Below are positions 1 to 10,909 of a stretch of DNA of 10,909 nt, one piece after another (the stretch's first letter is position 1; each line of letters opens with the position of its first letter). This stretch comes from Microbacterium sp. (GTDB lineage Bacteria; Actinomycetota; Actinomycetes; Actinomycetales; Microbacteriaceae). The position numbers were made by a program, and so were the translations under genes. The notes beneath the pieces are model-generated. The model ran no database searches. It was not told where the DNA came from and saw nothing but the letters and a program-made list of their open reading frames with translations. The DNA is taken from NCBI GenBank assembly GCA_029267645.1, contig JAJUIM010000040.1, positions 1 to 10,909 on the forward strand, written 5' to 3'.

Positions 1-1495
1 CCTCGCCCGCCGCCCACTCGGGCACCCGCACGTTGAGCGTCAGGGCGACGGGCTCTCCCTGCGGTTCGATCTCGATGCGCGCCTCGTCCGACCACGGATA
101 CGCCGCGTCGACCGAGACCGCGACGCCCTGCTCGCGCCAGGTCAGGCGCGCGGGCGCGAGCTGGGCGATCCACAGGGCGGGCGCGCCGTCGGCGGCGCGG
201 AAGAACACGCTGTCGTGGTGCGTCACGTGGTTCTCGAGCCCCGTGCCCCCGCAGCACGTGCCCGTGTTGTCGTACTCGGGCAGCGCGCCCGGGTCGACGG
301 GGAACATGTAGGTCACCTCCGGGCTCGTGTCGGAGCCCGCCGCGCGCCGCGACCCGAGGAGGTGATTGAGCGAGGCGCGCTCGCAGTAGTCCATGAATCG
401 CGGCTCGAGCGTGTGCAGGAACAGGAGCCTCGCGAGCTTGCGCAGGTTGTAGGTCGCGCAGGTCTCGGCGTTGCGGCGGCCGATGTTGCCCGCGACCGTG
501 CCGGGGGCGCCCCAGATCTCGCTCTCGCCCGTGCCGCCGTGCGCGAACATGCGGCCCGGCACGACCTGATCCCAGATCCCGATCGCCGCGTCGAGATAGC
601 GGCGCTCGCCCGTCAGCTCGTACTCGTGCACGTAGCCGACGAGCTGCGGCAGGTGCTGGTTCGCGTGCATCCCCGTGAGCACGTCGTCGCCCGACGACCC
701 CGCGGCGAGCAGCTCGTCCTGCTCGAACAGGCGCGCCGTGTCGAGCAGCTCGGGCGCGTCCGCGACGACGCTCAGCCGCGCGAGCGTCTCGTTCATGCCG
801 CCGTACTCGCCCGCGATGTACAGCGACCACATCCGCTGCAGGTGCGCGCGGTCGAGCCGGCCGAGCCGGTGCGCGACCCACCGGCCCATCGCGGTCGCGA
901 CCTCGAGCGCGCGCTCGTTGCCCGCGAGCTCGTACGCGTCGAGCAGCCCGGCCATGATCTTGTGGCACGTGTAGTACGGCGCCCAGATCTCGCCGTAGGG
1001 GGCGAGCTCCTCCAGGCGCGCGAACTGCCACTCGCCGTAAGCCGCGAGGAAACCGGGGTGCGAGAACCGCCCCGTCGCCGCGAGCGCCGACTGCACCTCG
1101 GCGAGGCCGTCGACCAGCTCGCCGACCTTTCGCCGCAGCGCCTCGTCGCGCTCCCCCTCGGCGGCGAGCGCGAGCATCGACAGGAAGTGCCCCGCGTAGT
1201 GGCCGCGCAGGAGGTTCGCGGTCTGCGCGCTGTCGGCGCCCGGGTAGTCGTGCTCGCCCCAGGCCTCCTCGTTCGGGTGCCCGAACTCCTCCCAGCCCCC
1301 GGGCGGGCGAGCACCGCGCGTGTCGAGGCCGGCGTTCGCGCGGAACACCGCGAGCAGACGGTCGACGGGGTAGACCCGCGCGAGATGGAGCATGCCGTCG
1401 CGCGCACGCAGGAAGACGCTGCCCTCGCCGAGCTCGACGTCGCCGAGGTCGAAGGGCTCGACGAGGCGGGCGGGCCGCGCGGCGGGCGCGGTCAT
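1..1495 (-). CDS. DUF1680 glycoside hydrolase (GH127/GH146-like), probable cytoplasmic beta-L-arabinofuranosidase, C-terminus cut by window edge
   Basis: I translated this frame by hand; 498 residues are visible and it is open to position 1. The start is the ATG at 1495-1493, which overlaps the stop of the preceding peptidase gene (ATGA) and has GGGAG about 8 nt upstream. The family is recognised from a YYTCHK motif (about 174-179), GGMNE (232-236), ETCATYN (344-350) and GTCCGGTGLE (412-421). In characterised beta-L-arabinofuranosidases of this fold, a Glu, a Cys and a Cys-Cys pair bind zinc and one of the paired cysteines is the nucleophile. E344, C346, C414 and C415 fit those roles, and E324 or E326 could be the acid/base. 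The N-terminal style (FRANAGL, GGWEEFG, GHYAGHFLS) resembles the GH146 side of DUF1680 more than Bifidobacterium HypBA1. No signal peptide or lipobox is present, so the enzyme is probably cytoplasmic. The family also includes pectin- and arabinan-active members, so the exact substrate is uncertain. Confidence 0.88.
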   Translation of the reverse strand, partial: MTAPAARPARLVEPFDLGDVELGEGSVFLRARDGMLHLARVYPVDRLLAVFRANAGLDTRGARPPGGWEEFGHPNEEAWGEHDYPGADSAQTANLLRGHYAGHFLSMLALAAEGERDEALRRKVGELVDGLAEVQSALAATGRFSHPGFLAAYGEWQFARLEELAPYGEIWAPYYTCHKIMAGLLDAYELAGNERALEVATAMGRWVAHRLGRLDRAHLQRMWSLYIAGEYGGMNETLARLSVVADAPELLDTARLFEQDELLAAGSSGDDVLTGMHANQHLPQLVGYVHEYELTGERRYLDAAIGIWDQVVPGRMFAHGGTGESEIWGAPGTVAGNIGRRNAETCATYNLRKLARLLFLHTLEPRFMDYCERASLNHLLGSRRAAGSDTSPEVTYMFPVDPGALPEYDNTGTCCGGTGLENHVTHHDSVFFRAADGAPALWIAQLAPARLTWREQGVAVSVDAAYPWSDEARIEIEPQGEPVALTLNVRVPEWAAGE

Positions 1496-2922
1496 CGGAT
1501 CCGCTCCCGCGTCCACCGCTCGAGCCCCGCCGCGTCGATGGGAAGGGCGTCAGAGAGCACCTCGGAGCCCGACGCCGTGACGAGCACGTCGTCTTCGATC
1601 CGCACGCCGATTCCCCGCAGCTCGGGCGGCAGCGTGAGGTCGTGCGCGTGGAAGTAGAGACCGGGTTCGACCGTCATGACGACCCCCTGCTCGAGCGGGG
1701 CGCCCATGTAGTCCTCGTAGTGCGCCTGGCTGCAGTCGTGCACGTCGAGGCCGAGGTGGTGTCCGATCCCGCACGCGAGGTACCGGCGATGCTGCTGCCC
1801 CTTCGGCGAGAGCGCCTCGTCGACCGACACGGGCAGCAGCCCCCAGTCGTGGAGCCCCTGGGCGATGACCTCCATCGCCGCGAAGTGGAAGTCGAGATAC
1901 TCGGTGCCGGGGCGGATCCGGTCGAGCCCCGCGCGATGCGCGCGCTCGACAAGGTCGTGCACGGCGCGCTGCTCGGGCGAGAAAGAGCCCGTCACGGGAA
2001 TCGTGCGCGTGACGTCGGCCGTGTAGAGCGACCGCGCCTCGACGCCCATGTCGAGCAGCAGGAGCTCCCCCGGCACGAGGTCGCCGTCGCACCGCACCCA
2101 GTGCAGCGTGGGCGCGTGGGCGCCCGCTCCGACGATCGTCGCGTACCCCGGGCCGTTGCCCCGCGTGCGCGCGAGCCTGTCGAACGTGCCCTGCAGCCAG
2201 CGCTCGCCGAGCCCGTCCGCAAGGGCGCGGGGGATCTCGGAGGCGACCTGGGAGAAGCCTTCGACCGTCGCGTCCACGGCCTCGCGCAGCTGCGCGATCT
2301 CCCAGTCGTCCTTCACCATGCGCAGCCGCGACAGCGTGCGCTCGAGCTCGGCGGAGGGCGCCCATCCCGCGAGCGCCGCCGCGGCCGCCCTCGTCACGCT
2401 CGCGCCGGTTGCCCGCGAGAGCACCGACTCCAGCTCCGCGCGGGGGCGCACCTCGATGCCGAGCGCCTCGGACCACTCCGCGAGCCCCGCGGAGGGCCCC
2501 ACCCAGAGCTCGCCGTGCGCGGCGTCCGCGAAGAAGCCCGTCTCGCCCGGGCGGAATGGCGGCGGCAGGAAGAGGATCGCGTCGTGCCCGTCCGGACCGG
2601 CGCGCATGACGAGCACGGCGTCCTCCGCCTGGCACCCCGTCAGCCACACGAAGCTGCTGTCGGCGCGGAACCCGTATGCGCTGTCGTCGTTGCGCGTCGG
2701 CGCGGTGCCCGAGGCCGCGACGATCGTCGTCCCCGGCATCGCGTCGCTCAGCCGCCGCCGGTGCGCCGCGCTCGCCGCCGCCTGGCCCGCCACGAGATCG
2801 GGCGCGGGGGTGCGATCGTCCCACCCCGTCGCGATCCACTCGGTGAAAGCGGGCACCTCGGCGAGGCGCGGGTATCGCGTGCCCGCGTACGGCGGGCGCG
2901 CGTCGTGTCGGTCGGTCGTCAT
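1492..2922 (-). CDS. pepP: Xaa-Pro aminopeptidase (aminopeptidase P, peptidase M24B)
   Basis: The protein has 476 residues and should release an N-terminal amino acid that precedes proline, using a dinuclear metal centre (usually Mn2+) in the cytoplasm. Residues about 55-185 form the AMP_N domain, with the typical YGFRADSSFVWLTG stretch. The pita-bread catalytic domain follows from about 200. Expected metal ligands are all present: D291 (LLLDMGVE), D303 (YTADVTRT), H388 (GIGHHLGLDVHD), E419 (TVEPGLY) and E443 (GVRIEDD); H395 is the conserved second histidine. Length is slightly above E. coli PepP (441). The ATG start overlaps the prolyl aminopeptidase stop by 4 nt and has GAGGAGGA 8 nt upstream (plus 2931-2938). 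The frame stays open far upstream, but that extension is a shadow of the neighbouring gene. Its stop overlaps the glycosidase start. The role inferred from context is processing Pro- or Hyp-containing peptides brought in by the adjacent transporter. Confidence 0.95.
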   Translation of the reverse strand: MTTDRHDARPPYAGTRYPRLAEVPAFTEWIATGWDDRTPAPDLVAGQAAASAAHRRRLSDAMPGTTIVAASGTAPTRNDDSAYGFRADSSFVWLTGCQAEDAVLVMRAGPDGHDAILFLPPPFRPGETGFFADAAHGELWVGPSAGLAEWSEALGIEVRPRAELESVLSRATGASVTRAAAAALAGWAPSAELERTLSRLRMVKDDWEIAQLREAVDATVEGFSQVASEIPRALADGLGERWLQGTFDRLARTRGNGPGYATIVGAGAHAPTLHWVRCDGDLVPGELLLLDMGVEARSLYTADVTRTIPVTGSFSPEQRAVHDLVERAHRAGLDRIRPGTEYLDFHFAAMEVIAQGLHDWGLLPVSVDEALSPKGQQHRRYLACGIGHHLGLDVHDCSQAHYEDYMGAPLEQGVVMTVEPGLYFHAHDLTLPPELRGIGVRIEDDVLVTASGSEVLSDALPIDAAGLERWTRERIR

Positions 2923-4205
2923 CGTCGCTCTCCTCCTCTGTCCCGAACGAGCTCGCGAAGCCGCGTGAAGGTGCGCCCCGAGCCGATGCCGTCGTGCTCG
3001 AACTCGTTCGTGACCCAGCGCGTCGCGTTGCCGACGCGGCCGAGCGTGTCGAGCTGCAGGCCGGAATCGACGTACATGTCGTCGAAGTACACGGCGGCGG
3101 CGACCGGCACCTCGTTCGCGGCGAGCTGCCGCTCGTCGTAGAGCGGCGACCAGTCGGACTTCCGCGCGAGCTCCTCGACCGCCGGCCGGAAGCCGCGAAG
3201 CGCGCGGATCTCCTCGAACATCCACGGGAACGCCATCTCCCCCGTGAACAGCAGCGGGCGTCGCTCCTCGTCGAACTCGGGACGGCGGTCGCGCTCGGCC
3301 TGCGCGGCCCAGCCCGTCGGCCCGTGCCCCGGGTCGCCGTAGATGGCCTCCTGGAGCGTCCAGAACAGCGGGTTGTTCGCCGTCGTCGACAGCGCGAGCA
3401 CGTCCTGCAGGAACCCCTCCGAGAACCGCCCTGGCCGCACGAAGGCCTTCTCGAACAGCCAGTGCAGGCGCTCGTGGCCGGGCTTCATGCCCATGTCGAT
3501 GCCGAGCGACTGCAGCCGCCGCACCGTGAGCCTGTCGCCGTCGGGCAGCCGCACGTCGTCGCTCGCGAGCGCGTCGGCGATCCGGGCGACGCGCGAGGCA
3601 TCGCCCGGATAGCGGCGATAGAGCTCGGCCGTCTTCGCGGCGACGCGATCGAACGTGCGCCGATAGACCTCGGCCGCACGGGGCGGCACGCCGGGCACGC
3701 CGCCGCAGATGTAGCTCGCGGCGAGCCCCTCCGGCGCGAACGACAGGTACGTCAGGGTGATCCAGCCGCCGAAGCTCTGGGCGAGCGTCGACCACCGGCG
3801 GCCCTCGTAGAGCGTGCGGCGCACGTGCTCGAGATCGCGCACGATCGAGTCGGCGCGGAAGTGCGCGAGGAATCGGGCGCCCGCCGCGCCGTCGCCGCGC
3901 TCGGCCACGACGCGCGCGTCGACCGGGGTGCTGCCGCCCGTTCCGCGCTGATCGACGAGCACGAGCCGGTAGTCGCGGAGCGCCTCGTCGATCCAGCCGT
4001 CGCGCGCGAGCGGCCGAGGGTTCGCGCCGCCGGGGCCGCCCTGCAGGTAGGTGAGCAGGGGCAGGTCCTCGTCCGCGCGATCGGGGTCGACCAGCTCGCG
4101 CACGAGCAGCTCGATCGCCTCGCCGTCCGGATCCGCCCAGTCGAGCGGCACCGGCACGCGCCGGTCGGTCACGCGGATCCCGGGCAGCAGGTATGCGCCG
4201 CTCAC
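2919..4205 (-). CDS. pip: Prolyl aminopeptidase (proline iminopeptidase, peptidase S33, large type)
   Basis: This 428-residue alpha/beta hydrolase should remove N-terminal proline from peptides in the cytoplasm. The oxyanion motif LQGGPGGANPRP spans about 54-65 and VDQRGTGGS follows at 84-92. The nucleophile elbow is AQSFGGW with Ser144. The helical cap carries GEMAFPWMFEE around E323, where the family recognises the substrate amino group. The acid is D375 or D376 in YFDDMYVD, and the histidine is H404 in NEFEHDG. The length matches the large Aeromonas/Hafnia-type enzymes (about 425 residues) rather than the roughly 317-residue small type. As I recall, enzymes of this family also accept hydroxyproline derivatives. 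The start is GTG at 4205-4203, overlapping the ATPase stop as GTGA, with GGAGG 7 nt upstream. The stop overlaps the pepP start. No signal peptide is seen. A general alpha/beta hydrolase annotation is the fallback. Confidence 0.93.
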   Translation of the reverse strand: MSGAYLLPGIRVTDRRVPVPLDWADPDGEAIELLVRELVDPDRADEDLPLLTYLQGGPGGANPRPLARDGWIDEALRDYRLVLVDQRGTGGSTPVDARVVAERGDGAAGARFLAHFRADSIVRDLEHVRRTLYEGRRWSTLAQSFGGWITLTYLSFAPEGLAASYICGGVPGVPPRAAEVYRRTFDRVAAKTAELYRRYPGDASRVARIADALASDDVRLPDGDRLTVRRLQSLGIDMGMKPGHERLHWLFEKAFVRPGRFSEGFLQDVLALSTTANNPLFWTLQEAIYGDPGHGPTGWAAQAERDRRPEFDEERRPLLFTGEMAFPWMFEEIRALRGFRPAVEELARKSDWSPLYDERQLAANEVPVAAAVYFDDMYVDSGLQLDTLGRVGNATRWVTNEFEHDGIGSGRTFTRLRELVRDRGGERR

Positions 4206-5086
4206 AGGCCCGCCTCCGCGACGCCGCCCGCGCCGCGCGCGGCCGACTCCCGCCGGCGCTGCGCCTCGCGCCGGCGGCGGTCCCACTCCGGGTTGATGCG
4301 GGGCACCGCGCTCAGCAGCTTCCGCGTGTACTCGTGCCGCGGCGCGCGGAAGAGCTCGTCGCGATCGCCCGTCTCGACGATCCGCCCCTGGCTCATGACG
4401 GCGACGCGGGTGGCGATCTGCCGCACGACCGCGAGGTCGTGCGCGATGAAGAGGTAGCCGAAGCCCTCCTCGCGCTGCAGTTCGCGCAGGAGGTTGATCA
4501 CCTGGGCCTGCACCGAGACGTCCAGCGCCGAGACCGCCTCGTCGCAGATGATGAGCTTGGGCTGCACCGCGAGCGCCCGGGCGATCCCGATGCGCTGGGC
4601 CTGTCCGCCCGAGAACTGCGAGGGCAGCCGGTCGGAGAAGTCGGGATTCAGGCCGACGCGATCCATGAGGTCCTTCGCGAACGCCCGCGCGCCGCCGGGG
4701 ATCGGGCGGCGCTGGTACACGAGCGGCCCCGTGATGAGCCGCTCGACGCTCTGCCGGGGATTCAGCGACGAGAACGGATCCTGGAAGATGACCTGCACGC
4801 CGCCGCGGAACGCCCGCAGGTCGTTCCCCTTCAGCTGCGAGACGTCCTCGCCCTCGAACTCGATCGATCCCGCCGTCGGCTCCATGAGGCGCGCGACGAG
4901 CCGCGCCGTCGTCGACTTGCCGGATCCGGATTCGCCCACGACCGCGAGCGTCTCGCCGCGATCGACCTCGAAGGAGACGTCGTCGACCGCGCGGAACGAC
5001 GGGCGCCGGCCGAAGAGGCCCCGCCGGCCCGAGGGGAACTCCTTGACGAGCCCCGTGGCGCGGCACAGCGGACTCTGAGCGCTCAT
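4202..5086 (-). CDS. dppF: Peptide ABC transporter ATP-binding protein, DppF/OppF type
   Basis: This 294-residue ATPase is one of two that power the peptide importer on the cytoplasmic membrane face. Visible motifs are Walker A GESGSGKS (51-58), Q-loop Q102 within FQDPFSSLNP, signature FSGGQ (158-162), Walker B LIICDE (178-183) and switch H216. FQDPFSSLNPRQSV and the tail HEYTRKLLSAVPRINPEW are typical of the nickel/peptide transporter subfamily. After that tail the protein ends in an Arg-rich stretch (about 268-282) followed by a Gly/Ala-rich end. It lacks the cysteine-containing C-terminal region often seen in OppD/OppF. The ATG at 5086 overlaps the upstream ATPase stop (ATGA), with GGGAGGTG a few bases before it. 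Its own stop overlaps the GTG of the prolyl aminopeptidase gene. It is assigned as the F-type partner because it is the second ATPase and carries GRRPSFRAVDDVSFEV near the N-terminus. Confidence 0.95.
   Translation of the reverse strand: MSAQSPLCRATGLVKEFPSGRRGLFGRRPSFRAVDDVSFEVDRGETLAVVGESGSGKSTTARLVARLMEPTAGSIEFEGEDVSQLKGNDLRAFRGGVQVIFQDPFSSLNPRQSVERLITGPLVYQRRPIPGGARAFAKDLMDRVGLNPDFSDRLPSQFSGGQAQRIGIARALAVQPKLIICDEAVSALDVSVQAQVINLLRELQREEGFGYLFIAHDLAVVRQIATRVAVMSQGRIVETGDRDELFRAPRHEYTRKLLSAVPRINPEWDRRRREAQRRRESAARGAGGVAEAGL
4213..4217 (-). promoter_or_regulatory. Ribosome binding site supporting the GTG start of the prolyl aminopeptidase gene
   Basis: GGAGG on the minus strand lies 7 nt before the GTG at 4205-4203, inside the last codons of dppF. 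It supports the GTG start. The first in-frame ATG is well inside the conserved domain and would remove the GGPGG oxyanion motif. Confidence 0.65.
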
Positions 5087-5943
5087 CGCGCACCTCCCGG
5101 GAACGTGCCGACCGTGTCGGTCGTGCGCATGTATCCGATCTCGTCGTCGATGCGGGGCACCGCGTCGAGCAGCCGCTGCGTGTAGTCGGCCTGCGGATCC
5201 GAGAAGATCTGCTCGGTCCTGCCGCGCTCGACCATGCGGCCGCCTCGCATCACGACGATGCTGTCGGTGACCTCGCTGACCACCGCGAGGTCGTGGGTGA
5301 TGAGGATCATGCTCGCGCCGCTGGCGGCCCGGATCTCGTCGAGCAGGTCGAGGATCTGCGCCTGCACCGTCACGTCGAGCGCCGTGGTCGGCTCGTCGGC
5401 GATGATCAGGTCGGGCTCCATCGCGAGCGCCATCGCGATCATGATGCGCTGCCGCATGCCGCCGGAGAACTGGTGCGGGTAGTGATCGACCCGCGTCGAG
5501 GCCTCGCGGATGTGCACGCGCTCGAGCGCCTCGATCGCGACGCGCCTCGCCTCGCGGCGCGTGACGCCCGATCGATGCGAGCAGTACGCCTCGATGATCT
5601 GCGTGCCGACCGTGTAGTACGGATTCAGCGACGACAGCGGATCCTGGAAGATCATCGCGATCCGGTCCCCGCGGATGGCGCGCATGCGGCGCTCGGACAG
5701 CGACGTGAGCTCCTGCCCGTCGAACCGGATCGATCCCGTCTTCTCGCCGCCCTTCGGCAGCAGGTCCATGATCGCGAGGCTCGTCATCGACTTGCCCGAA
5801 CCCGACTCGCCCACGATGCCGACGGACTCGCCGCGAGCGACGTCGAAGGACAGGTCCTCCACGACGTCGGTCGTGCCGCCCGCCGTGCGGAAGGACACCG
5901 TGAGACCGGACACCTGGAGCAGGGGGTCTGCTGCGTTCGTCAT
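5083..5943 (-). CDS. dppD: Peptide ABC transporter ATP-binding protein, DppD/OppD type
   Basis: This is the first of two ATPase subunits of the importer (286 residues). Motifs in order are Walker A GESGSGKS (45-52), Q-loop Q100 in IFQDPLSSLNP, signature FSGGM (159-163), Walker B LIIADE (179-184), D-loop ALD and switch H217. The N-terminal pattern LLQVSGLTVSF and the MRQRIMIAMALA block are characteristic of DppD/OppD. The C-terminal extension after DYTQRLLDAVPRID is only about 20 residues and has no cysteine cluster. The ATG at 5943-5941 overlaps the DppB stop by 4 nt, with GGGAG about 8 nt upstream. A much longer upstream reading of the same frame is a shadow of the permease gene and was not used. 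The paired ATPase begins on this gene's stop codon, implying stoichiometric co-production of the heterodimer. Confidence 0.95.
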   Translation of the reverse strand: MTNAADPLLQVSGLTVSFRTAGGTTDVVEDLSFDVARGESVGIVGESGSGKSMTSLAIMDLLPKGGEKTGSIRFDGQELTSLSERRMRAIRGDRIAMIFQDPLSSLNPYYTVGTQIIEAYCSHRSGVTRREARRVAIEALERVHIREASTRVDHYPHQFSGGMRQRIMIAMALAMEPDLIIADEPTTALDVTVQAQILDLLDEIRAASGASMILITHDLAVVSEVTDSIVVMRGGRMVERGRTEQIFSDPQADYTQRLLDAVPRIDDEIGYMRTTDTVGTFPGGAR

Positions 5944-6938
5944 GCGGTTGCTCCCGTTCGCACGCGCGGATCGATGACGGAGTAGAGGAGGTCGACGACG
6001 AAGTTGCCGATGATGACGAAGAACGCCGACAGCAGCGTGACCGCCATGATGACGGGCTGGTCGTTGCTCGAGATCGAGTCGGCCGTGAGCTTGCCGATGC
6101 CGTTCAGGCCGAAGACCGTCTCGGTGATGAGCGCGCCGCCGAGGAGCCCCGCGATGTCCATGCCGAAGATCGTCACGATCGGGGTCAGCGCGGGGCGCAG
6201 CGCGTGCCTGCGCCAGACGAGGCTCGGGCGCAGGCCCTTCGCGCGGGCCGTCCGGACGAAGTTCTCCTGCATCGTCTCGATGACGTTCGCCCTCGTGAGG
6301 CGCGTGTAGATCGCGGCGTAGCTGATCGCGAGCACGATCCACGGCATGAGGAAGTTGAGGAACCAGCGAACGGGGTCGTCGCCGAACGGCACGGCCTGCG
6401 GGAACGGCAGCCAACCGAGCACCACGACGAGGAGGAACTGCAGCGCGAGCGCGAGCACGTAGTTCGGGATCGACATCGAGCCGAGCGTGAGCCCCGCGAA
6501 GAAGCGGTCGAGGAACTTCCCCTCCTTCGCCGCGCTCAGCACGCCGGCCGCGACGCCGCCGAAGAGCCACAGCACGGCCGCGCCGAGCGCGATCGTCGCC
6601 GAGATGGGCAGGCGCTGCACGATCATGTCGCCGACGAGCTGGCTCGTCTGGAACGAGTACCCCAGGCACGGCGCCGAGCAGGCGACCTCGCTCCCCGCGA
6701 CGAGGAACGTCCTCCCCGCGAAGAGCCCGCCCACGTAGGTGGCGAATTGCTGCCAGAACGGCAAGTCGAGCCCGAGGCTCGCTCGGATCTGGTCGATGCG
6801 ATCGGGCGTGCAGTTCTTTCCGCAGATCTGCACGGCGGGATCGGGCGAGAGCACGAAGAAGATGACGTACGTGAACAGCGTCACGAGGAAGAGCACGACG
6901 ATCATGCCGCCGAGCCGGTTGAGCATCATGCGGATCAT
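5940..6938 (-). CDS. dppB: Peptide ABC transporter permease, DppB/OppB type
   Basis: This 332-residue integral membrane protein forms half of the peptide translocation pore. The N-terminal block MIRMMLNRLGG followed by a hydrophobic helix (about 12-31) and the SLGLDLPFWQQF segment are typical of the DppB family. Further membrane segments lie near 112-133, 150-176, 196-213, 255-275 and 297-320. The EAA coupling loop, which docks on the ATPases, spans about 225-251 (ENFVRTARAKGLRPSL onward). The large loop after the first helix contains two cysteine pairs, C39/C43 and C87/C91, which probably lie outside the membrane. The ATG at 6938 overlaps the DppC stop by 4 nt, with GGAGGTG 5 nt upstream (plus 6944-6950). 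The stop overlaps the dppD start. It lies downstream of the C-type permease, the reverse of the classical B-C order. Confidence 0.95.
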   Translation of the reverse strand: MIRMMLNRLGGMIVVLFLVTLFTYVIFFVLSPDPAVQICGKNCTPDRIDQIRASLGLDLPFWQQFATYVGGLFAGRTFLVAGSEVACSAPCLGYSFQTSQLVGDMIVQRLPISATIALGAAVLWLFGGVAAGVLSAAKEGKFLDRFFAGLTLGSMSIPNYVLALALQFLLVVVLGWLPFPQAVPFGDDPVRWFLNFLMPWIVLAISYAAIYTRLTRANVIETMQENFVRTARAKGLRPSLVWRRHALRPALTPIVTIFGMDIAGLLGGALITETVFGLNGIGKLTADSISSNDQPVIMAVTLLSAFFVIIGNFVVDLLYSVIDPRVRTGATA

Positions 6939-7906
6939 GCGCGCACCTCCCCCGCGTCGGCGATCCCACGCACGCGGTCGCCCAGCGTCGTGAACGACAT
7001 GACGAGCAGGAAGAGGAAGACGCCGGGGATGATGAAGTACATCGGATCGACGGCGTACCACGGCGCGGCCGAGGCGATCATCTGCCCCCAGCTGGGCGTC
7101 GGCGGGACGACGCCGACGCCGAGGAACGAGAGGCCGGCTTCCGTGCCGACGTAGCCCGGCACCGCGAGGGCGGCCATCACGATGATCGTCGACTGCAGGT
7201 TCGGCAGGATCTCGCGGAAGATGATCTGGCGGTGCGTTGCGCCCGACGCCCGCGCCGATTCGACGAACTCGCGCTCCTTCAGGCTGAGCGTCTGCGAGCG
7301 CACGATGCGCGCGAGATACGGCCACCCGAAGAGCGAAATCACGAGCACGAGCAGCACGACGCGGTTGTCGGCGGGGAGCGCCGAAAGGATCGCGATCATG
7401 AAGATCAGCGCGGGGAAGGCCATGAGGAACTCCATGGCCCGCGAGATGACGGCGTCGACGCGGCCGCCGAAGTAACCGGCGAGCAGGCCGAAGACCGTGC
7501 CGAGCAGCGTCGTGAGCGCCGTCGCGCTCAGCGCGACCGTGAGCGAGACTCGCGCGCCGTAGACGATGCGGGCGAAGATGTCGCGGCCGTTGCCGGGCTC
7601 GACGCCGAACCAGTGCTCGGCGCCCATCCCGCCCAGCGGGCCGATCGGCAGCGCGCCGAGGTTGGGATCGATCGAGTCCTGGTCGAACTCGTAGGGGCCC
7701 CAGCCGCTGAGGCGCACGATGAGCGGCGCGAAGACGGCGGCCACGATCATGAGCACGATGTACGCGGACGACAGCATCGCCGGCACATCCGAGAGAAAGG
7801 CCCGCAGGAAGCGACTTCCGGCGCGCGGCTGCGGACCCGACGTGATGACCGTCGAGTCGCCGCCGCGCGCCGCCGCTGCCGTGAGCTCGGGCGTCGCGGA
7901 AGTCAT
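6935..7906 (-). CDS. dppC: Peptide ABC transporter permease, DppC/OppC type
   Basis: This 323-residue permease is the second half of the peptide channel. An N-terminal cytoplasmic segment rich in Ala, Gly and Ser (about 1-40) precedes the first helix (about 44-66). The family hallmark, normally GTDxxGRDxxSRxxYGARxS, appears as GVEPGNGRDIFARIVYGARV (101-120). Other helices lie near 122-147, 153-175, 182-199, 240-262 and 288-306. The EAA loop is EFVESARASGATHRQIIFRE (213-232), ending ILPNL. GLSFLGVGVVPPTPSWG (258-274) is another DppC signature. The ATG at 7906 follows the lipoprotein stop by a single nucleotide (TGA-T-ATG), with AAGGGC just upstream inside the preceding gene. Its stop overlaps the dppB start. 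Confidence 0.95.
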   Translation of the reverse strand: MTSATPELTAAAARGGDSTVITSGPQPRAGSRFLRAFLSDVPAMLSSAYIVLMIVAAVFAPLIVRLSGWGPYEFDQDSIDPNLGALPIGPLGGMGAEHWFGVEPGNGRDIFARIVYGARVSLTVALSATALTTLLGTVFGLLAGYFGGRVDAVISRAMEFLMAFPALIFMIAILSALPADNRVVLLVLVISLFGWPYLARIVRSQTLSLKEREFVESARASGATHRQIIFREILPNLQSTIIVMAALAVPGYVGTEAGLSFLGVGVVPPTPSWGQMIASAAPWYAVDPMYFIIPGVFLFLLVMSFTTLGDRVRGIADAGEVRA

Positions 7907-7907
7907 A

Positions 7908-9593
7908 TCAGCCCTTCGAGGGGTCCTTGAGCCCGATGATCGTGAGGTCGGTCATGTTCGTGTTCGGGTGGTAGCCCGCGATGTTCTCGCCAGGGACGAA
8001 GATGCCGTTCTCGAGCACGAGGGGCGCGATCGGCGCCTGCTCCATGATCTGCTCGTCGAGGTCGCCCCACGCCGTCGCCGCCTCGTCCGTCGCGCCCATC
8101 GCCTTGATCTCATCGATGCGGCTGTTGACGTCGGCGTCGTCGAACTGCGCGAGGTTCTGGTTGCCGCGATCCGTGATGTTGCGGCCGTCGAACAGCGGCG
8201 GGATGAACGTGCTCGCGCTCGACGCCCAGTCGGGGCACCAGCCCGTGATGGCCGCGTCGTTCTGCTGCGACGGCGTCGCGATCGTCTCGTAGTAGATCGC
8301 CGAGTCGATGACGTTGAGCTTGACGTCGATGTTCGCCTTCGCGAGCGACTCCTGCACGGCCTCGGCCTGGGCCCGCGCCGTCGGGTTGGAGCGGATATCG
8401 AGCGTGAACTCGAGGCCGTCGGCGTAGCCCGCCTCTTCGAGCAGCGCTGTGGCCTTGTCGACGTCGCCCGCGTTGCCGTCGCTCGGGTAGAGGTCGAAGT
8501 CCTTGTGGCCCGTGACCGCCGGGGGAATGATCGTCGTCGCTACGTCGGCGAGCTGCGTGCCGCCGGAGGCGTTCTGCACCGAGGCGCGGTCGATCGCCCA
8601 GTTCACGGCCTGGCGCACGCGGACGTCGTCGAAGGGCTCCTTCGTCGTGTTCATGCCCATGTACGTCGTGCAGTACGCGGGCGCCGTGATGGCCCGCTCC
8701 TGCAGCTCGGGCGTCTGGATCCGCGCGAGGGTCGCGCCGCCGATCTTGGGGCCGATGGCGTTCTGATCGGCGCCCTGTCCCGCGATCATCCGTTCGTCGA
8801 TCGTCGCGGGGTCGATGCCGATCTCGAACTCCCACGCGTCGGGGTACGCCTTTCGCACCTCATCCGTCGCCGGATCCCAGTGCTCGTTCCGCACGAGCTT
8901 GATCGAGCTGCCCGGGGTGTAGCTGTCGAGCGTGTAGGGCCCGGATGCGATGACGTCGTTGATGAACTCGTCGCCGCCACCCGTTCCCTCCGGGAAGGGC
9001 ACGGCGTTCGCCTGGGCGAGCACGTTGTCGAACTCGGGGAACGGCTCCTTGAGGTGGAAGACGATCGTCTGCGCATCGGGGGTCTCGATCGTCGGCAGGT
9101 CGCCGCTGACGTAGGGGCCCTCGTAGTCGTCGGGCGCGTCGATGACGTTCTTGAGGTACGGGGAGCCGATGCCGATCTGCGGATCCCAGGCTCGCGAGAT
9201 GCCGAACTTCACCTCGGCGGAGGTGATCGGATCGCCGTTGTCGAACGCGAGGTCCTCCTTGAGCGTGTAGGTCCACGTCAGGCCGTCCTCGGACTCTTCG
9301 CCGAGCGAGGTCGCCATGTCGGGAACGATCGCGTTGGGGTCCTCCGCGTCGCCCGCCGCCTGCATCGTGAGGCCGCGGTACATGAGGCGGTAGAACGCGT
9401 TGACGCCGCCGTCCCACCCGCGCGCGGGGTCGAGATAGGAGAAGTCGGTGTTCTGCAGCATGTGCACGGTACCGCCCTGCTGCGGCTCGTCGCCTGCGTC
9501 GGCAGGACCTTCTGCTGTGCCGGCGCAGCCCGCGAGAGCGAGCGCTCCCACGATCGTCAGCGCGAAGGCGGATTTCCGGGCGACCTGGGACAT
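7908..9593 (-). CDS. Peptide-binding lipoprotein, solute-binding protein family 5 (SBP_bac_5)
   Basis: This is the extracytoplasmic receptor of the importer: 561 residues, anchored to the outer face of the membrane as a lipoprotein. The signal peptide has a basic start (R6, K7), a hydrophobic core (9-20) and a lipobox LAGC with acylated C23. An acidic, Gly/Ala-rich linker follows, then the family 5 fold, with typical stretches FSYLDPARGW (about 51-60), LAFDNGDPITSAEVKFGISR and DDVRVRQAVNWAIDR. The ATG at 9593-9591 was chosen because GAGGAG lies 7 nt upstream and the lipobox sits at the right distance. An in-frame ATG at 9626 falls near the predicted transcription start and has no good Shine-Dalgarno; a GTG at 9674 lies upstream of the promoter -35. 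It is the first gene of the operon, directly downstream of the promoter. The ligand cannot be read from the sequence; a peptide or glycopeptide is expected from context. Confidence 0.95.
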   Translation of the reverse strand: MSQVARKSAFALTIVGALALAGCAGTAEGPADAGDEPQQGGTVHMLQNTDFSYLDPARGWDGGVNAFYRLMYRGLTMQAAGDAEDPNAIVPDMATSLGEESEDGLTWTYTLKEDLAFDNGDPITSAEVKFGISRAWDPQIGIGSPYLKNVIDAPDDYEGPYVSGDLPTIETPDAQTIVFHLKEPFPEFDNVLAQANAVPFPEGTGGGDEFINDVIASGPYTLDSYTPGSSIKLVRNEHWDPATDEVRKAYPDAWEFEIGIDPATIDERMIAGQGADQNAIGPKIGGATLARIQTPELQERAITAPAYCTTYMGMNTTKEPFDDVRVRQAVNWAIDRASVQNASGGTQLADVATTIIPPAVTGHKDFDLYPSDGNAGDVDKATALLEEAGYADGLEFTLDIRSNPTARAQAEAVQESLAKANIDVKLNVIDSAIYYETIATPSQQNDAAITGWCPDWASSASTFIPPLFDGRNITDRGNQNLAQFDDADVNSRIDEIKAMGATDEAATAWGDLDEQIMEQAPIAPLVLENGIFVPGENIAGYHPNTNMTDLTIIGLKDPSKG

Positions 9594-9600
9594 GGTGGCG

Positions 9601-9606
9601 CTCCTC
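9601..9606 (-). promoter_or_regulatory. Ribosome binding site of the peptide-binding lipoprotein gene
   Basis: On the minus strand GAGGAG lies 7 nt before the ATG at 9593. It is the strongest Shine-Dalgarno match in the leader and decides the start in favour of the shorter, 561-residue protein with a normal lipoprotein signal peptide. Confidence 0.8.
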
Positions 9607-9632
9607 GAGTGAATGCTCCGTTGCATACGGTG

Positions 9633-9661
9633 ACAGTAGCAAGGGAGGTGTGACGGTGCAA
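9633..9661 (-). promoter_or_regulatory. Probable sigma-70-type promoter of the peptide/glycosidase operon
   Basis: On the minus strand, -35 TTGCAC (plus 9656-9661) and -10 TACTGT (plus 9633-9638) are separated by exactly 17 nt. TGC directly precedes the -10, giving an extended -10 element. The -10 matches the TAxxxT actinobacterial pattern. The predicted start near 9626 would leave a leader of about 33 nt carrying the GAGGAG ribosome binding site. The region is AT-richer than its surroundings and sits between the terminator and the first operon gene, where a promoter is expected. The match is good but not proven; regulation cannot be read from it. Confidence 0.55.
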
Positions 9662-9678
9662 TGTAAAACCTCACTCCT
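9646..9678. promoter_or_regulatory. Candidate operator: interrupted inverted repeat around the -35 box
   Basis: AGGTGTGA (9646-9653) and TCACTCCT (9671-9678) form an inverted repeat with 7 of 8 bases paired and a 17-nt spacer that contains the -35 element. Such placement would suit a repressor or activator site for substrate-controlled expression. The arms are short and chance occurrence is plausible. No regulator gene is present in the window. Confidence 0.22.
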
Positions 9679-9701
9679 ATTCCTACCGTGATCTCGGCAT
9701 G

Positions 9702-9747
9702 ACGAAAGCCCGCGTCACGTGATCTTCACGTGACGCGGGCTCTTCGT
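9702..9747 (-). terminator. Rho-independent-type terminator of the serine hydrolase gene
   Basis: The arms AGCCCGCGTCACGTGA (9707-9722) and its exact reverse complement (9726-9741) form a perfect 16-bp stem with a 3-nt loop. ACGAA (9702-9706) and TTCGT (9743-9747) extend it by five more pairs after a single bulged base (9742). On the minus strand it lies about 30-70 nt after the serine hydrolase stop and is followed only by a short T run (TTTCGTC), as is common in high-GC actinobacteria. It separates that gene from the operon promoter downstream. Each arm also contains a CACGTG palindrome. Confidence 0.85.
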
Positions 9748-9778
9748 TACCTGCGCGAAATCCGCGAGCGCGGGCGCC

Positions 9779-10909
9779 TCACTCCACGGGGCACACGGCC
9801 GCGTCGGTGACGGCCTGGCGGGCCTGCTCGGCCGTCCACGGCAGCGACGACTCGGGCTTGCGGTCGCTCGGCGCGTCCATGGCGATGGCGGCGAGCTCGC
9901 GCGCGAGCGCGCCCGCGAGGTCTCCCCCGCCGGCCGAGTTGTTGAGCGAGACGACGACAGTGAGGCCCGTGTCGACGTCGCTGTACGCCGCCGTCGCGTA
10001 GCCGAGGATGTCGCCCTGCTGGCCGATCATGGGGCCCATGAGCCGGTCGCCGCCCGCGACGCGCACCCACTGCTCGCCGTCGGCGCTCACGGGGAGCGAC
10101 TCGGCCCAGCGCGGGTTCAGGTCGTCGCTGGATCCCGCGCGCCGGCCGAGGTCGGCGGCGTAGTCGCGCAGATCCTCGAGCGTCGAGACGACGCCGCTGT
10201 CGGCGTAGCCCATCGACGACGAAAGCTCGGTGACCTCCTGCGGCTCCTCCTCGCAGCCCGCCTGGCGCGCGGCGTTCGAGGTGTAGAACCCGGGCATCGG
10301 GTTCGTGCCGGGCTCGGCCGCGGCGACCGTCGGCAGGAAGGTGCGGTCGAGGTCGTTCGGCTCGGCCACGTACTCCTGGTACAGGTCGCGCAGCGACTGG
10401 TGCGAGGCGTTCTCGAGCGCGAGGCCGAGCAGGAAGAAGGACGTGTCGGAGTCGCTCCACACGCCCGCCTCGCCGCGGCCGTGGCCGAGGCCCGACGCGG
10501 CGAACTCGCGCGGGTTCCACACGCGGTCCGGGTTGCTCAGCATGTAGTTCCAGTTGCCCGACGTCGACGACCGCAGGCCCGCGACGCCGTTGCAGAGGTC
10601 GAGCAGCGTGACGTCCTCGAGCTCGGGAACGCTCGAGACGAACTGCGTGACCGAGTCGTCGAGGTCGACGACGCCGCCGTCCATGGCGTAGAGCACGTCG
10701 CACGTCATCGACCGCGTGATCGTGCCGGCGCGGAACGACATGTCGGTCGAGGGCGCCTCACCGGATCCTGGCGCCGTCTCGCCGAGGCCCGCCTGCCACT
10801 CGCCCGCCCAGGGCACCCACACGCCGACGACGGCGCCGGGGGCGCCCGCGGCCGCCATGCCGCGCTCGGCCGCCTGCTGCAGCTGCTCGACGACCTCGTC
10901 GTCGAGAGG
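9779..10909 (-). CDS. Serine hydrolase, beta-lactamase / peptidase S12 (D-Ala-D-Ala carboxypeptidase-like) fold, with eroded active-site motifs; N-terminus cut by window edge
   Basis: The frame is open to the end of the window; 376 residues are visible. An ATG at 10858 is internal, because the 17 residues before it (ending EQLQQAAERG) continue the usual helix leading into GAPGAVVGVW, so the true start lies outside. The family is recognised from GAPGAVVGVW, SFRAGTITRS, DGGVVDLDDSVTQFV, FFLLGLALEN and the late GDILGYATAAYSDVDTGLTV segment. The SxxK motif, normally near FRIGSITK, here reads TITR (plus 10712-10723), so both nucleophile Ser and general-base Lys are replaced. The YxN motif reads WSD (plus 10451-10459), and the usual HxG/KTG turn reads QQGD. 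Scattered cysteines (in MTCDVL, LCNG, AGCEEE and AVCPVE) could pair if the protein is exported; a signal peptide would be outside the window. It is probably a catalytically altered or inactive member. It lies before the terminator and is not part of the peptide operon. Confidence 0.8.
   Translation of the reverse strand, partial: PLDDEVVEQLQQAAERGMAAAGAPGAVVGVWVPWAGEWQAGLGETAPGSGEAPSTDMSFRAGTITRSMTCDVLYAMDGGVVDLDDSVTQFVSSVPELEDVTLLDLCNGVAGLRSSTSGNWNYMLSNPDRVWNPREFAASGLGHGRGEAGVWSDSDTSFFLLGLALENASHQSLRDLYQEYVAEPNDLDRTFLPTVAAAEPGTNPMPGFYTSNAARQAGCEEEPQEVTELSSSMGYADSGVVSTLEDLRDYAADLGRRAGSSDDLNPRWAESLPVSADGEQWVRVAGGDRLMGPMIGQQGDILGYATAAYSDVDTGLTVVVSLNNSAGGGDLAGALARELAAIAMDAPSDRKPESSLPWTAEQARQAVTDAAVCPVE

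Follow-up and report, generated by a model that had tools for sequence, protein, structure and literature searches.

Hydroxyproline-rich glycoproteins (HRGPs) occur widely as a component of walls, and in the microbial routes to their use found in the literature HRGP arabinan is clipped outside the cell. In the known systems, as far as the available accounts go, arabinose or its disaccharide (Ara2) is released there and the sugar is imported (PMC7263609, PMC5928203). This study concerns a different arrangement of genes, found on a contig of Microbacterium sp. (GenBank JAJUIM010000040.1, here C390) whose 10,909 bases, with a G+C content of about 0.7, make up the whole of the stretch analysed, hereafter the window. 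Eight genes on its minus strand bring together a putative peptide-type ATP-binding cassette (ABC) importer, two proline peptidases and a beta-L-arabinofuranosidase-like enzyme of the DUF1680 type. This operon very probably serves the uptake and dismantling of arabinosylated hydroxyproline (Hyp) peptides of plant (and perhaps algal) HRGPs such as extensins. On my best reading, what is new here is the utilisation of HRGPs by import of glycopeptides, as opposed to the extracellular deglycosylation of the known systems. I will refer to loci, genomes and contigs by L, G and C numbers, respectively, the strain's own assembly (2.37 Mb in 477 contigs, 90.5% complete) being G000.

The system of Bifidobacterium longum (HypAA, HypBA2 and HypBA1) likewise targets the Hyp-linked beta-L-arabinofuranose (Araf) of HRGPs and likewise combines an ABC importer with an intracellular DUF1680 enzyme. 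There, however, extracellular GH43 and GH121 enzymes act first, releasing arabinose and Ara2, the latter of which enters through a sugar importer; the available part of the description includes neither peptidases nor Hyp catabolism, whereas a peptide-type importer, peptidases and Hyp genes are built into the locus considered here (PMC7263609). The original prediction, made from the letters of the window, had described the Bifidobacterium glycosidases as extracellular, which holds for HypAA and HypBA2 but not for HypBA1, already described as intracellular (PMC7263609). Neither a GH121 arabinobiosidase nor a GH43 gene beside a sugar importer is present among the genes of the window and its continuation, C61, to which the search for GH121 was confined.

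Xanthomonas euvesicatoria (XeHypBA1, XeHypBA2 and XeHypAA) offers a likeness in the enzyme itself, XeHypBA1 being a member of GH146 that acts mainly on Araf-beta1-Hyp (PMC10850190). Its cluster differs in consisting of homologs of the three bifidobacterial glycosidases, and no peptide importer, S33 or M24B peptidase or Hyp operon is mentioned in the accessible portion of the report (PMC6085000). Bll4HypBA1, also of GH146 and also described as cutting Araf-beta1-Hyp, is called the "last enzyme" in the removal of HRGP oligoarabinofuranosides; it resembles the window enzyme, by description, in its family and in the bond predicted for it, and differs in being described as a glycosidase only (PMC10850190). 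For the imino acid, the closest counterpart is SCO6289–SCO6293 of Streptomyces coelicolor with its regulator HypR, which comprise a DAO subunit, a Fer2 protein, an FAD subunit, a deaminase, an epimerase and a GntR/FCD regulator. A collagenase also belongs to that regulon, and the available account does not describe an importer, proline peptidases or a glycosidase within it, all of which stand in one cluster here (PMC6608401). For Latescibacteria, an in-silico analysis has paired GH127 with peptidases and transporters of a general kind, the available part describing no operon (PMC4454575), and a study of genome neighbourhoods finds peptidases and transporters near a Bacilli group of the proline-racemase family, a search of it by term giving no glycosidase (PMC4113996). 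The present combination of genes was not found among the matches listed in open-licence literature, an absence that counts for little.

The operon runs along the minus strand from 9593 to position 1. It begins with a family-5 solute-binding lipoprotein (SBP, 7908..9593; SBP_bac_5, 1.8e-75), followed by permease C (PermC, 6935..7906; BPD_transp_1 and OppC_N), permease B (PermB, 5940..6938; BPD_transp_1 and BPD_transp_1_N) and the ATPases D (ATPD, 5083..5943) and F (ATPF, 4202..5086), both with ABC_tran and oligo_HPY domains. The two peptidases come next: an S33 enzyme of the prolyl aminopeptidase type with a GTG start (S33, 2919..4205; Abhydrolase_1) and an M24B aminopeptidase P (PepP, 1492..2922; match to aminopeptidase P 4pv4 in PDB). 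Last is the glycosidase (1..1495; PF07944), open at its end after 498 residues. Six of the seven junctions are overlaps of 4 bases and the remaining one is a gap of 1 base, as in translationally coupled operons. The coordinates, the junctions, the Pfam matches and the structure-sequence match of PepP thus bear out the unbroken eight-gene operon that had been predicted, with the amendment that the glycosidase is incomplete: because the window is the whole of a 10,909-base contig, the gene is truncated by the contig end. The final 141 minus-strand bases of the window are identical to the first 141 bases of C61 (4,420 bases), which carries the rest of the glycosidase (G000:C61 1-1385) and then, on the same strand, genes for a DHDPS-family protein, an aldehyde dehydrogenase (Aldedh) and a fragment of a proline-racemase-family (Pro_racemase) protein. 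A search for a continuation beyond C61 gave no full match.

To place the operon among its relatives, genome contigs were scanned with the ortholog alignment, which gave 122 confirmed relatives, the best 80 of which were kept; all counts of named loci refer to these, and all of them come from Actinomycetota. The identity thresholds by which a gene was counted as present were set after inspection of the loci and were loosened for some Hyp genes between two tabulations, and named loci overlap with the genomes of the genus (L078/G019, L071/G268, L084/G201), so the counts are not independent. An S33 or PepP gene adjoins the glycosidase in 52 of the 80 loci and both do in 46, while all five importer genes and both peptidases are present in 44. 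Hyp genes were tabulated for 53 loci, namely the 52 linked to a peptidase and L087, with flanks extended for 15 of them. At least five of the six Hyp genes are contiguous in 37, one to four in six and none in ten; 33 of the 53 have the full seven partners as well as at least five Hyp genes. The 53 loci span six orders: Glycomycetales, Kineosporiales, Kitasatosporales (Streptomyces), Micrococcales, Micromonosporales and Pseudonocardiales. The search for conserved co-occurrence that accompanied the original prediction therefore comes out in its favour.

Within the genus (247 genomes, the strain's own included) the operon-type glycosidase is carried by 18 genomes (at least 69% identity), and in each of them the S33 ortholog (at least 72%) lies on the same strand at a distance of 1423–1549 bp, a co-occurrence beyond what chance would give. 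One further genome, G064, has an S33 gene at 65% identity and no PepP, glycosidase or Hyp genes within 20 kb. Such linkage is not a general property of S33 genes, since 18 other S33 neighbourhoods of the genus (L149, L173-L189) include none with PepP, glycosidase or Hyp genes; distant Opp-type importer genes (25–48% identity) occur in four of them (L178, L183, L184 and L186). Exceptions within the operon type include L103, which is without S33, and L127, which is without five partners in a region that has the look of a collapsed draft. In G013, Streptomyces, Kineosporia and others, the position of the Hyp genes is upstream of SBP and not downstream of the glycosidase, and an association found on differing sides of the cluster has either been kept through rearrangement or been made more than once. 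Amidohydrolase genes were seen close to two clusters, at L087 12955-14085 (Nesterenkonia) and L069 16327-17403 (Leucobacter).

A variant that lacks the glycosidase bears on the possibility that the operon serves Pro/Hyp peptides in general, for example those of collagen, and that the glycosidase is incidental. In L152 (G094, 4317-14165) and L153 (G059, 6849-16977), a different Opp importer (SBP, ATPases and permeases) stands with S33 (57% identity), PepP (59–61%), DapA (59–61%) and GntR genes, in what looks like a candidate for the same route, used for unglycosylated Hyp peptides. The collagenase of the HypR regulon (PMC6608401) would also accord with a general role, as would the peptidases and ABC/TRAP transporters named as neighbours of one Bacilli group of the proline-racemase family (PMC4113996). 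Against these stand the overlap of the glycosidase gene with PepP in the window, the retention of the glycosidase across six orders, and the additional GH127, GH36, ara and gal genes that adjoin the operon in several genera, and I regard an incidental glycosidase as very improbable.

The other 27 of the 80 loci (L111, L112, L114-L120, L122-L124, L126, L128-L130 and L132-L142) have a DUF1680 enzyme with no peptidase, operon-type importer or Hyp gene adjoining it, so that linkage is not a general property of DUF1680 genes either. In a quick tree their enzymes form a single clade with support of 100, the root of the tree being unsure because of long distant branches. A regular separation of glycosidase from transporter and peptidases in related genomes had been named as something that would speak against the predicted pathway; among operon-type enzymes it is not observed, and the 27 separated copies are a clade of their own. 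One species, P. sukumoe, carries both types of enzyme (L095 and L128). The two types differ at their N-termini. By a hydropathy threshold applied to the first 45 residues, a hydrophobic N-terminus is found in 23 of the 27 unlinked enzymes, many of which also have a visible SRR motif as in signals for twin-arginine translocation (Tat), and in one of 52 operon-type enzymes. The same threshold gave 0 of 47 for S33, 0 of 51 for PepP and 38 of 46 for SBP. The test used gene starts from my own codon-score caller and no signal-peptide predictor. The operon-linked glycosidase thus appears, from its predicted N-terminus, to stay in the cytoplasm, which fits import before deglycosylation, a sequence of events that requires it.

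The window glycosidase has the PF07944 (GH127_cat) catalytic domain (1.3e-72, above cut-off), and its sequence places it as a DUF1680 beta-L-arabinofuranosidase-like enzyme nearer to GH146 than to GH127. The original prediction had rightly noted the zinc and cysteine residues of beta-L-arabinofuranosidases, while its account of the enzyme has to be corrected to GH146-like. By phmmer, the solved sequences nearest to the G013 ortholog are GH146 BT0349 (5opj, 171 bits) and Bll3HypBA1 (8k7y and 8k7x, 130 and 129 bits), as against 48 bits for Ara127N and 39 for HypBA1 of GH127; the E values for 5opj and HypBA1 are 2.7e-49 and 2.7e-9, respectively. Foldseek ranks 1–6 are all GH146 for the predicted structure of the M. 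oryzae ortholog (mean pLDDT 87.7), and alignment of that model with VIA-align gives identities of 26–30% to GH146 as against 17–20% to GH127, although by Z score one GH127 structure (6ex6, 38.4) stands above GH146 Bll3HypBA1 (35.7). The Glyco_hydro127C domain (PF20737) was not detected in the 460-residue part of the glycosidase encoded by C61 and was detected in true GH127 neighbours. A plain GH127 identity was rejected on this ground and on the nearness to GH146 by sequence and by Foldseek.

The candidate catalytic residues are all in the window and are invariant in 35 sequences. The codon of E326, the acid/base candidate, lies at 518..520 on the minus strand and is equivalent to that of E322 of L071. 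Those of the zinc ligands E344 (464..466, minus strand) and C346 (458..460, minus strand) align with the ETC of 5opj, and those of C414 and C415 (251..256, minus strand), zinc ligands that include the family's catalytic cysteine, align with its CC. The roles given here to the E-x-C and C-C zinc ligands and to the acid/base glutamate are those assigned for Bll3HypBA1, as described in PMC10850190. Membership in GH146 fits cleavage of the Araf-beta1-Hyp bond and does not prove it, because other members act on beta-linkages of arabinan and arabinogalactan proteins (AGPs): BT0349 on oligosaccharides derived from arabinan, and Bll3HypBA1 on the beta1,3-Araf of AGP and arabinan (PMC10850190). The enzyme might accordingly cut some other beta-L-arabinofuranoside, in arabinan, AGP side chains or rhamnogalacturonan II, and owe its place in the operon to nothing more than the supply of arabinose. 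I hold this to be extremely improbable, given a recurrent core with no polysaccharide-degrading or sugar-importing genes, a frequent link to Hyp catabolism and the lack of an export-like N-terminus.

After GH36 and GH127 genes had been met beside the L066 enzyme, 228 unlabelled neighbour genes were clustered with no choice of families in advance. A second GH127, with 8 genes in 5 genera, was the family present in most genera; next came GH36 alpha-galactosidase, with 6 genes in 3 genera, and a LacI regulator, with 4 genes, also in 3 genera. At L066 (Pseudoclavibacter), the order is PepP, GH36, glycosidase, GH127. At L069 (Leucobacter), where the importer would lie beyond the contig end, S33, PepP, GH36 and the glycosidase are followed by LacI, araD, an FGGY kinase, araA, aldose epimerase, galT and galK; araD, galT and galK are each above at least one curated cut-off, and the kinase is probably araB by its position, since the only NCBIfam match listed for it is xylulokinase, below cut-off. 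At L075 (M. arabinogalactanolyticum) the operon is succeeded by GntR, LacI, araD, an FGGY kinase and araA, so that the L-arabinose genes expected downstream by the original prediction are seen in these two relatives. In four Glycomyces loci (L064, L097, L100 and L101, Pfam having been run on L064), GH36 adjoins SBP on the other strand. A match to PF02610 (araA) was found in all six carrier genomes searched, in the strain's own genome over part of the domain. In the Ser-Hyp4 repeats of extensins, Ser is described as bearing alpha-galactose and Hyp as bearing one to five arabinofuranoses (PMC5371791); both sugars of extensin glycopeptides, and their imino acid, would thus be covered by GH36, the ara and gal genes and the Hyp genes together. 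As a separate observation, a second, true GH127 with PF20737 lies on the other strand a few kb beyond the Hyp genes in G001 and G005 (L039 3324-5267 and L036 3697-5751), and relatives of it are also found near L073, L074 and L077.

The S33 protein matches 8jgn (AT3G61540) over nearly its full length (residues 5-411, E 6.1e-95). Its QSFGG, FDDMY and EFEHDG regions align with 8jgn with residues conserved, and they hold what I take to be the catalytic triad of a prolyl aminopeptidase of what is presumably the large type. It scores 25.1 bits against the TIGR01249 prolyl aminopeptidase equivalog, below the cut-off of 259.75. PepP is closest, in a search of PDB, to 4pv4 (aminopeptidase P, E 3.6e-52) and to the aminopeptidase P (APP) of E. 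coli (1a16, 8.4e-49), and it aligns with both through the motifs for Asp, Asp, His, Glu and Glu, presumably the metal ligands.

The importer has the composition of the Opp/Dpp type: a family-5 SBP, permeases of the OppB and OppC types and two oligo_HPY ATPases. The lipobox of SBP, LALAGC, is read directly from the sequence, and the nearest solved chain is 2wok (E 1.2e-83), oligopeptide-binding protein 2 of the clavulanic acid cluster, followed mostly by peptide-binding proteins. None of the importer proteins reached the cut-off of an NCBIfam equivalog among the families listed; the best models are OppD-type for ATPD and the dipeptide ABC ATPase PRK11308 for ATPF, both below cut-off. A peptide-type importer with a peptide ligand is predicted. 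In G013 there is a second, distant peptide-type ABC importer (L041-L042) some kb downstream of the cluster, unlike in the four other same-genus loci compared, and the G013 SBP and PermB are the most divergent from those of the window among the five.

Some family-5 binding proteins take sugars, and it may be asked whether the importer carries free Hyp-arabinosides or beta-arabino-oligosaccharides, the peptidases only cleaning up ordinary Pro/Hyp peptides. Two loci lend themselves to that explanation: L087 (Nesterenkonia) has the glycosidase and Hyp genes only, with neither peptide importer nor peptidases, and L080 (Brachybacterium) has PepP, glycosidase and Hyp genes, with no S33 or peptide importer in the locus and with sugar-type SBP and ABC genes adjoining. 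Opposed to it are the 44 loci in which S33 and PepP accompany a complete importer, the overlap of peptidase genes with importer genes in the window, the solved relatives of SBP, mostly peptide binders, and the presence of GH36 beside PepP, which fits Ser-linked galactose on the same peptide. Transport of such free arabinosides or oligosaccharides is, in my judgment, unlikely, and import of glycopeptides is preferred.

The genes that follow the glycosidase on C61 are of the sort that the original prediction had suggested be looked for downstream. The own proline-racemase-family fragment comprises the first 171 residues, C61 ending inside the gene, and its best NCBIfam model is 4-hydroxyproline epimerase. 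It contains the first of the two Cys motifs of the epimerase (MCGHGT) and is cut before the second; the ortholog in G032 has both, and its best model is again that epimerase. An epimerase ortholog (at least 69% identity) is present in all 24 carrier genomes searched. Clusters of relatives add a GntR/FCD regulator, DAO, Fer2_4 and Pyr_redox/Fer2_BFD proteins and often a protein of the ornithine-cyclodeaminase family. The gene set equals that of the L-hydroxyproline route of S. coelicolor, where SCO6289–SCO6294 are so annotated and deletion of the epimerase gene is reported to abolish growth on L-Hyp (PMC6608401). The best NCBIfam models for the deaminase, dehydrogenase and GntR proteins are dapA, succinic semialdehyde dehydrogenase and a phosphonate regulator, respectively.

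Importer and Hyp genes may also share their control. A candidate operator, TACATTGCAC, lies at 9656..9665 on the minus strand, 63 bases upstream of the SBP start. With one variant position allowed and both strands searched, it has 8 matches in 1,731,035 bases, all upstream of SBP: 7 in the 13 Microbacterium loci with SBP, plus that in the window. HypR of S. coelicolor is described as binding TGCAATGTCAC-like sites, and the TACATTGCAC site shares TGCAATGT with these (PMC6608401). A second pattern, around GTGTGACATA(C/T)TACTG, has 11 matches, of which 7 are upstream of SBP in six genera; the other 4, all from Glycomyces, lie in the interval from GntR to DAO, either shortly ahead of the start of DAO or at it. 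Its occurrence at both kinds of promoter suggests that one regulator governs importer and Hyp genes. The patterns were written after the upstream regions had been inspected, so only their rarity elsewhere is informative.

Taken together, context and sequence support the pathway originally proposed, in which Hyp-rich glycopeptides are imported, arabinose is stripped inside the cell and the Pro/Hyp backbone is hydrolysed. The lipoprotein and ABC importer would take up short glycopeptides, which the GH146-like enzyme, lacking an export-like N-terminus, would relieve of their Hyp-linked beta-L-arabinofuranose inside the cell. The peptide would then be degraded by aminopeptidase P (Xaa-|-Pro/Hyp) and prolyl aminopeptidase (Pro/Hyp-|-Xaa) in alternation. 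Free L-Hyp would be converted to 2-oxoglutarate by the successive action of 4-hydroxyproline epimerase, D-Hyp dehydrogenase, pyrroline-4-hydroxy-2-carboxylate (Pyr4H2C) deaminase and ketoglutarate semialdehyde dehydrogenase, and L-arabinose would enter araBAD. Of this scheme, the genes and their conservation and linkage, the conserved catalytic residues, the absence of an export-like N-terminus and the operator-like sites held in common are observed; I infer what the importer binds, which bond is cut, what the strain's Hyp enzymes act on, whether deglycosylation or proteolysis comes first, and that GntR is the regulator. A broader claim, which I favor with less assurance as rather probable, is that in at least six orders of actinobacteria a dedicated peptide ABC importer brings in HRGP (extensin-type) glycopeptides intact, with their Hyp-linked Araf and, in some lineages, Ser-linked galactose, and that they are dismantled wholly in the cytoplasm, a "selfish" route by which arabinosylated peptide hormones of plants might be consumed in the rhizosphere as well.

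Besides the breadth of GH146 and the gene content of L080 and L087, several points weigh against the glycopeptide pathway. The evidence for the system is genomic, activity and binding being predicted from it, and the join of C390 to C61 rests on a single exact overlap of 141 bases. The full-length G032 epimerase ortholog, at 358.5 bits, falls just below the NCBIfam cut-off of 376, and none of the deaminase, dehydrogenase and GntR proteins scores above a cut-off of NCBIfam, so that their function is assigned by context. A search of the own assembly, 90.5% complete, for the DAO subunit of D-Hyp dehydrogenase gave no match at E 1e-20, which may reflect incompleteness or a real gap. Six of the ten loci with no adjoining Hyp genes are fully flanked (L063, L066, L075, L097, L100 and L101), the other four being near a contig end (L069, L083, L104 and L109); in L063 and L066, the two fully flanked cases examined further, all six Hyp genes are on another contig. 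GH36, ara and gal genes occur in few lineages and none is in the window, and among the genes scanned with Pfam none was seen for an alpha-L-arabinofuranosidase that would take off the outer, alpha-linked arabinose of Hyp-Ara4.

If the pathway is as proposed, soil and plant actinobacteria would draw carbon and nitrogen from wall glycopeptides by a route private to them, and Opp-type importers would be pointed to as carriers of glycopeptides. Its enzymes would also be an intracellular set with which Hyp-O-glycosylated peptides could be trimmed, and root bacteria might have in the operon a means of removing arabinosylated peptide hormones. Substrate, transport and regulation are directly testable in culturable strains (Microbacterium, Glycomyces and Streptomyces).

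The rest of the window contains, 185 bases upstream of the operon, a beta-lactamase-like gene on the minus strand (9779-10909; PF00144, best NCBIfam model AmpH, below cut-off). The contig end at this gene overlaps C301 by an exact 141 bases, and the gene probably runs on there. It was rejected as a member of the operon, a similar gene lying upstream of SBP only in L079 and L096 among the 80 named loci. Scans for tRNA and Rfam families gave 0 matches, as did scans of 9500-9900 for promoters and for terminators. Between the beta-lactamase-like gene and SBP is a perfect inverted repeat (9707-9741), with two arms of 16 bases and a loop of 3 bases, absent from the terminator list and perhaps a terminator or an operator.

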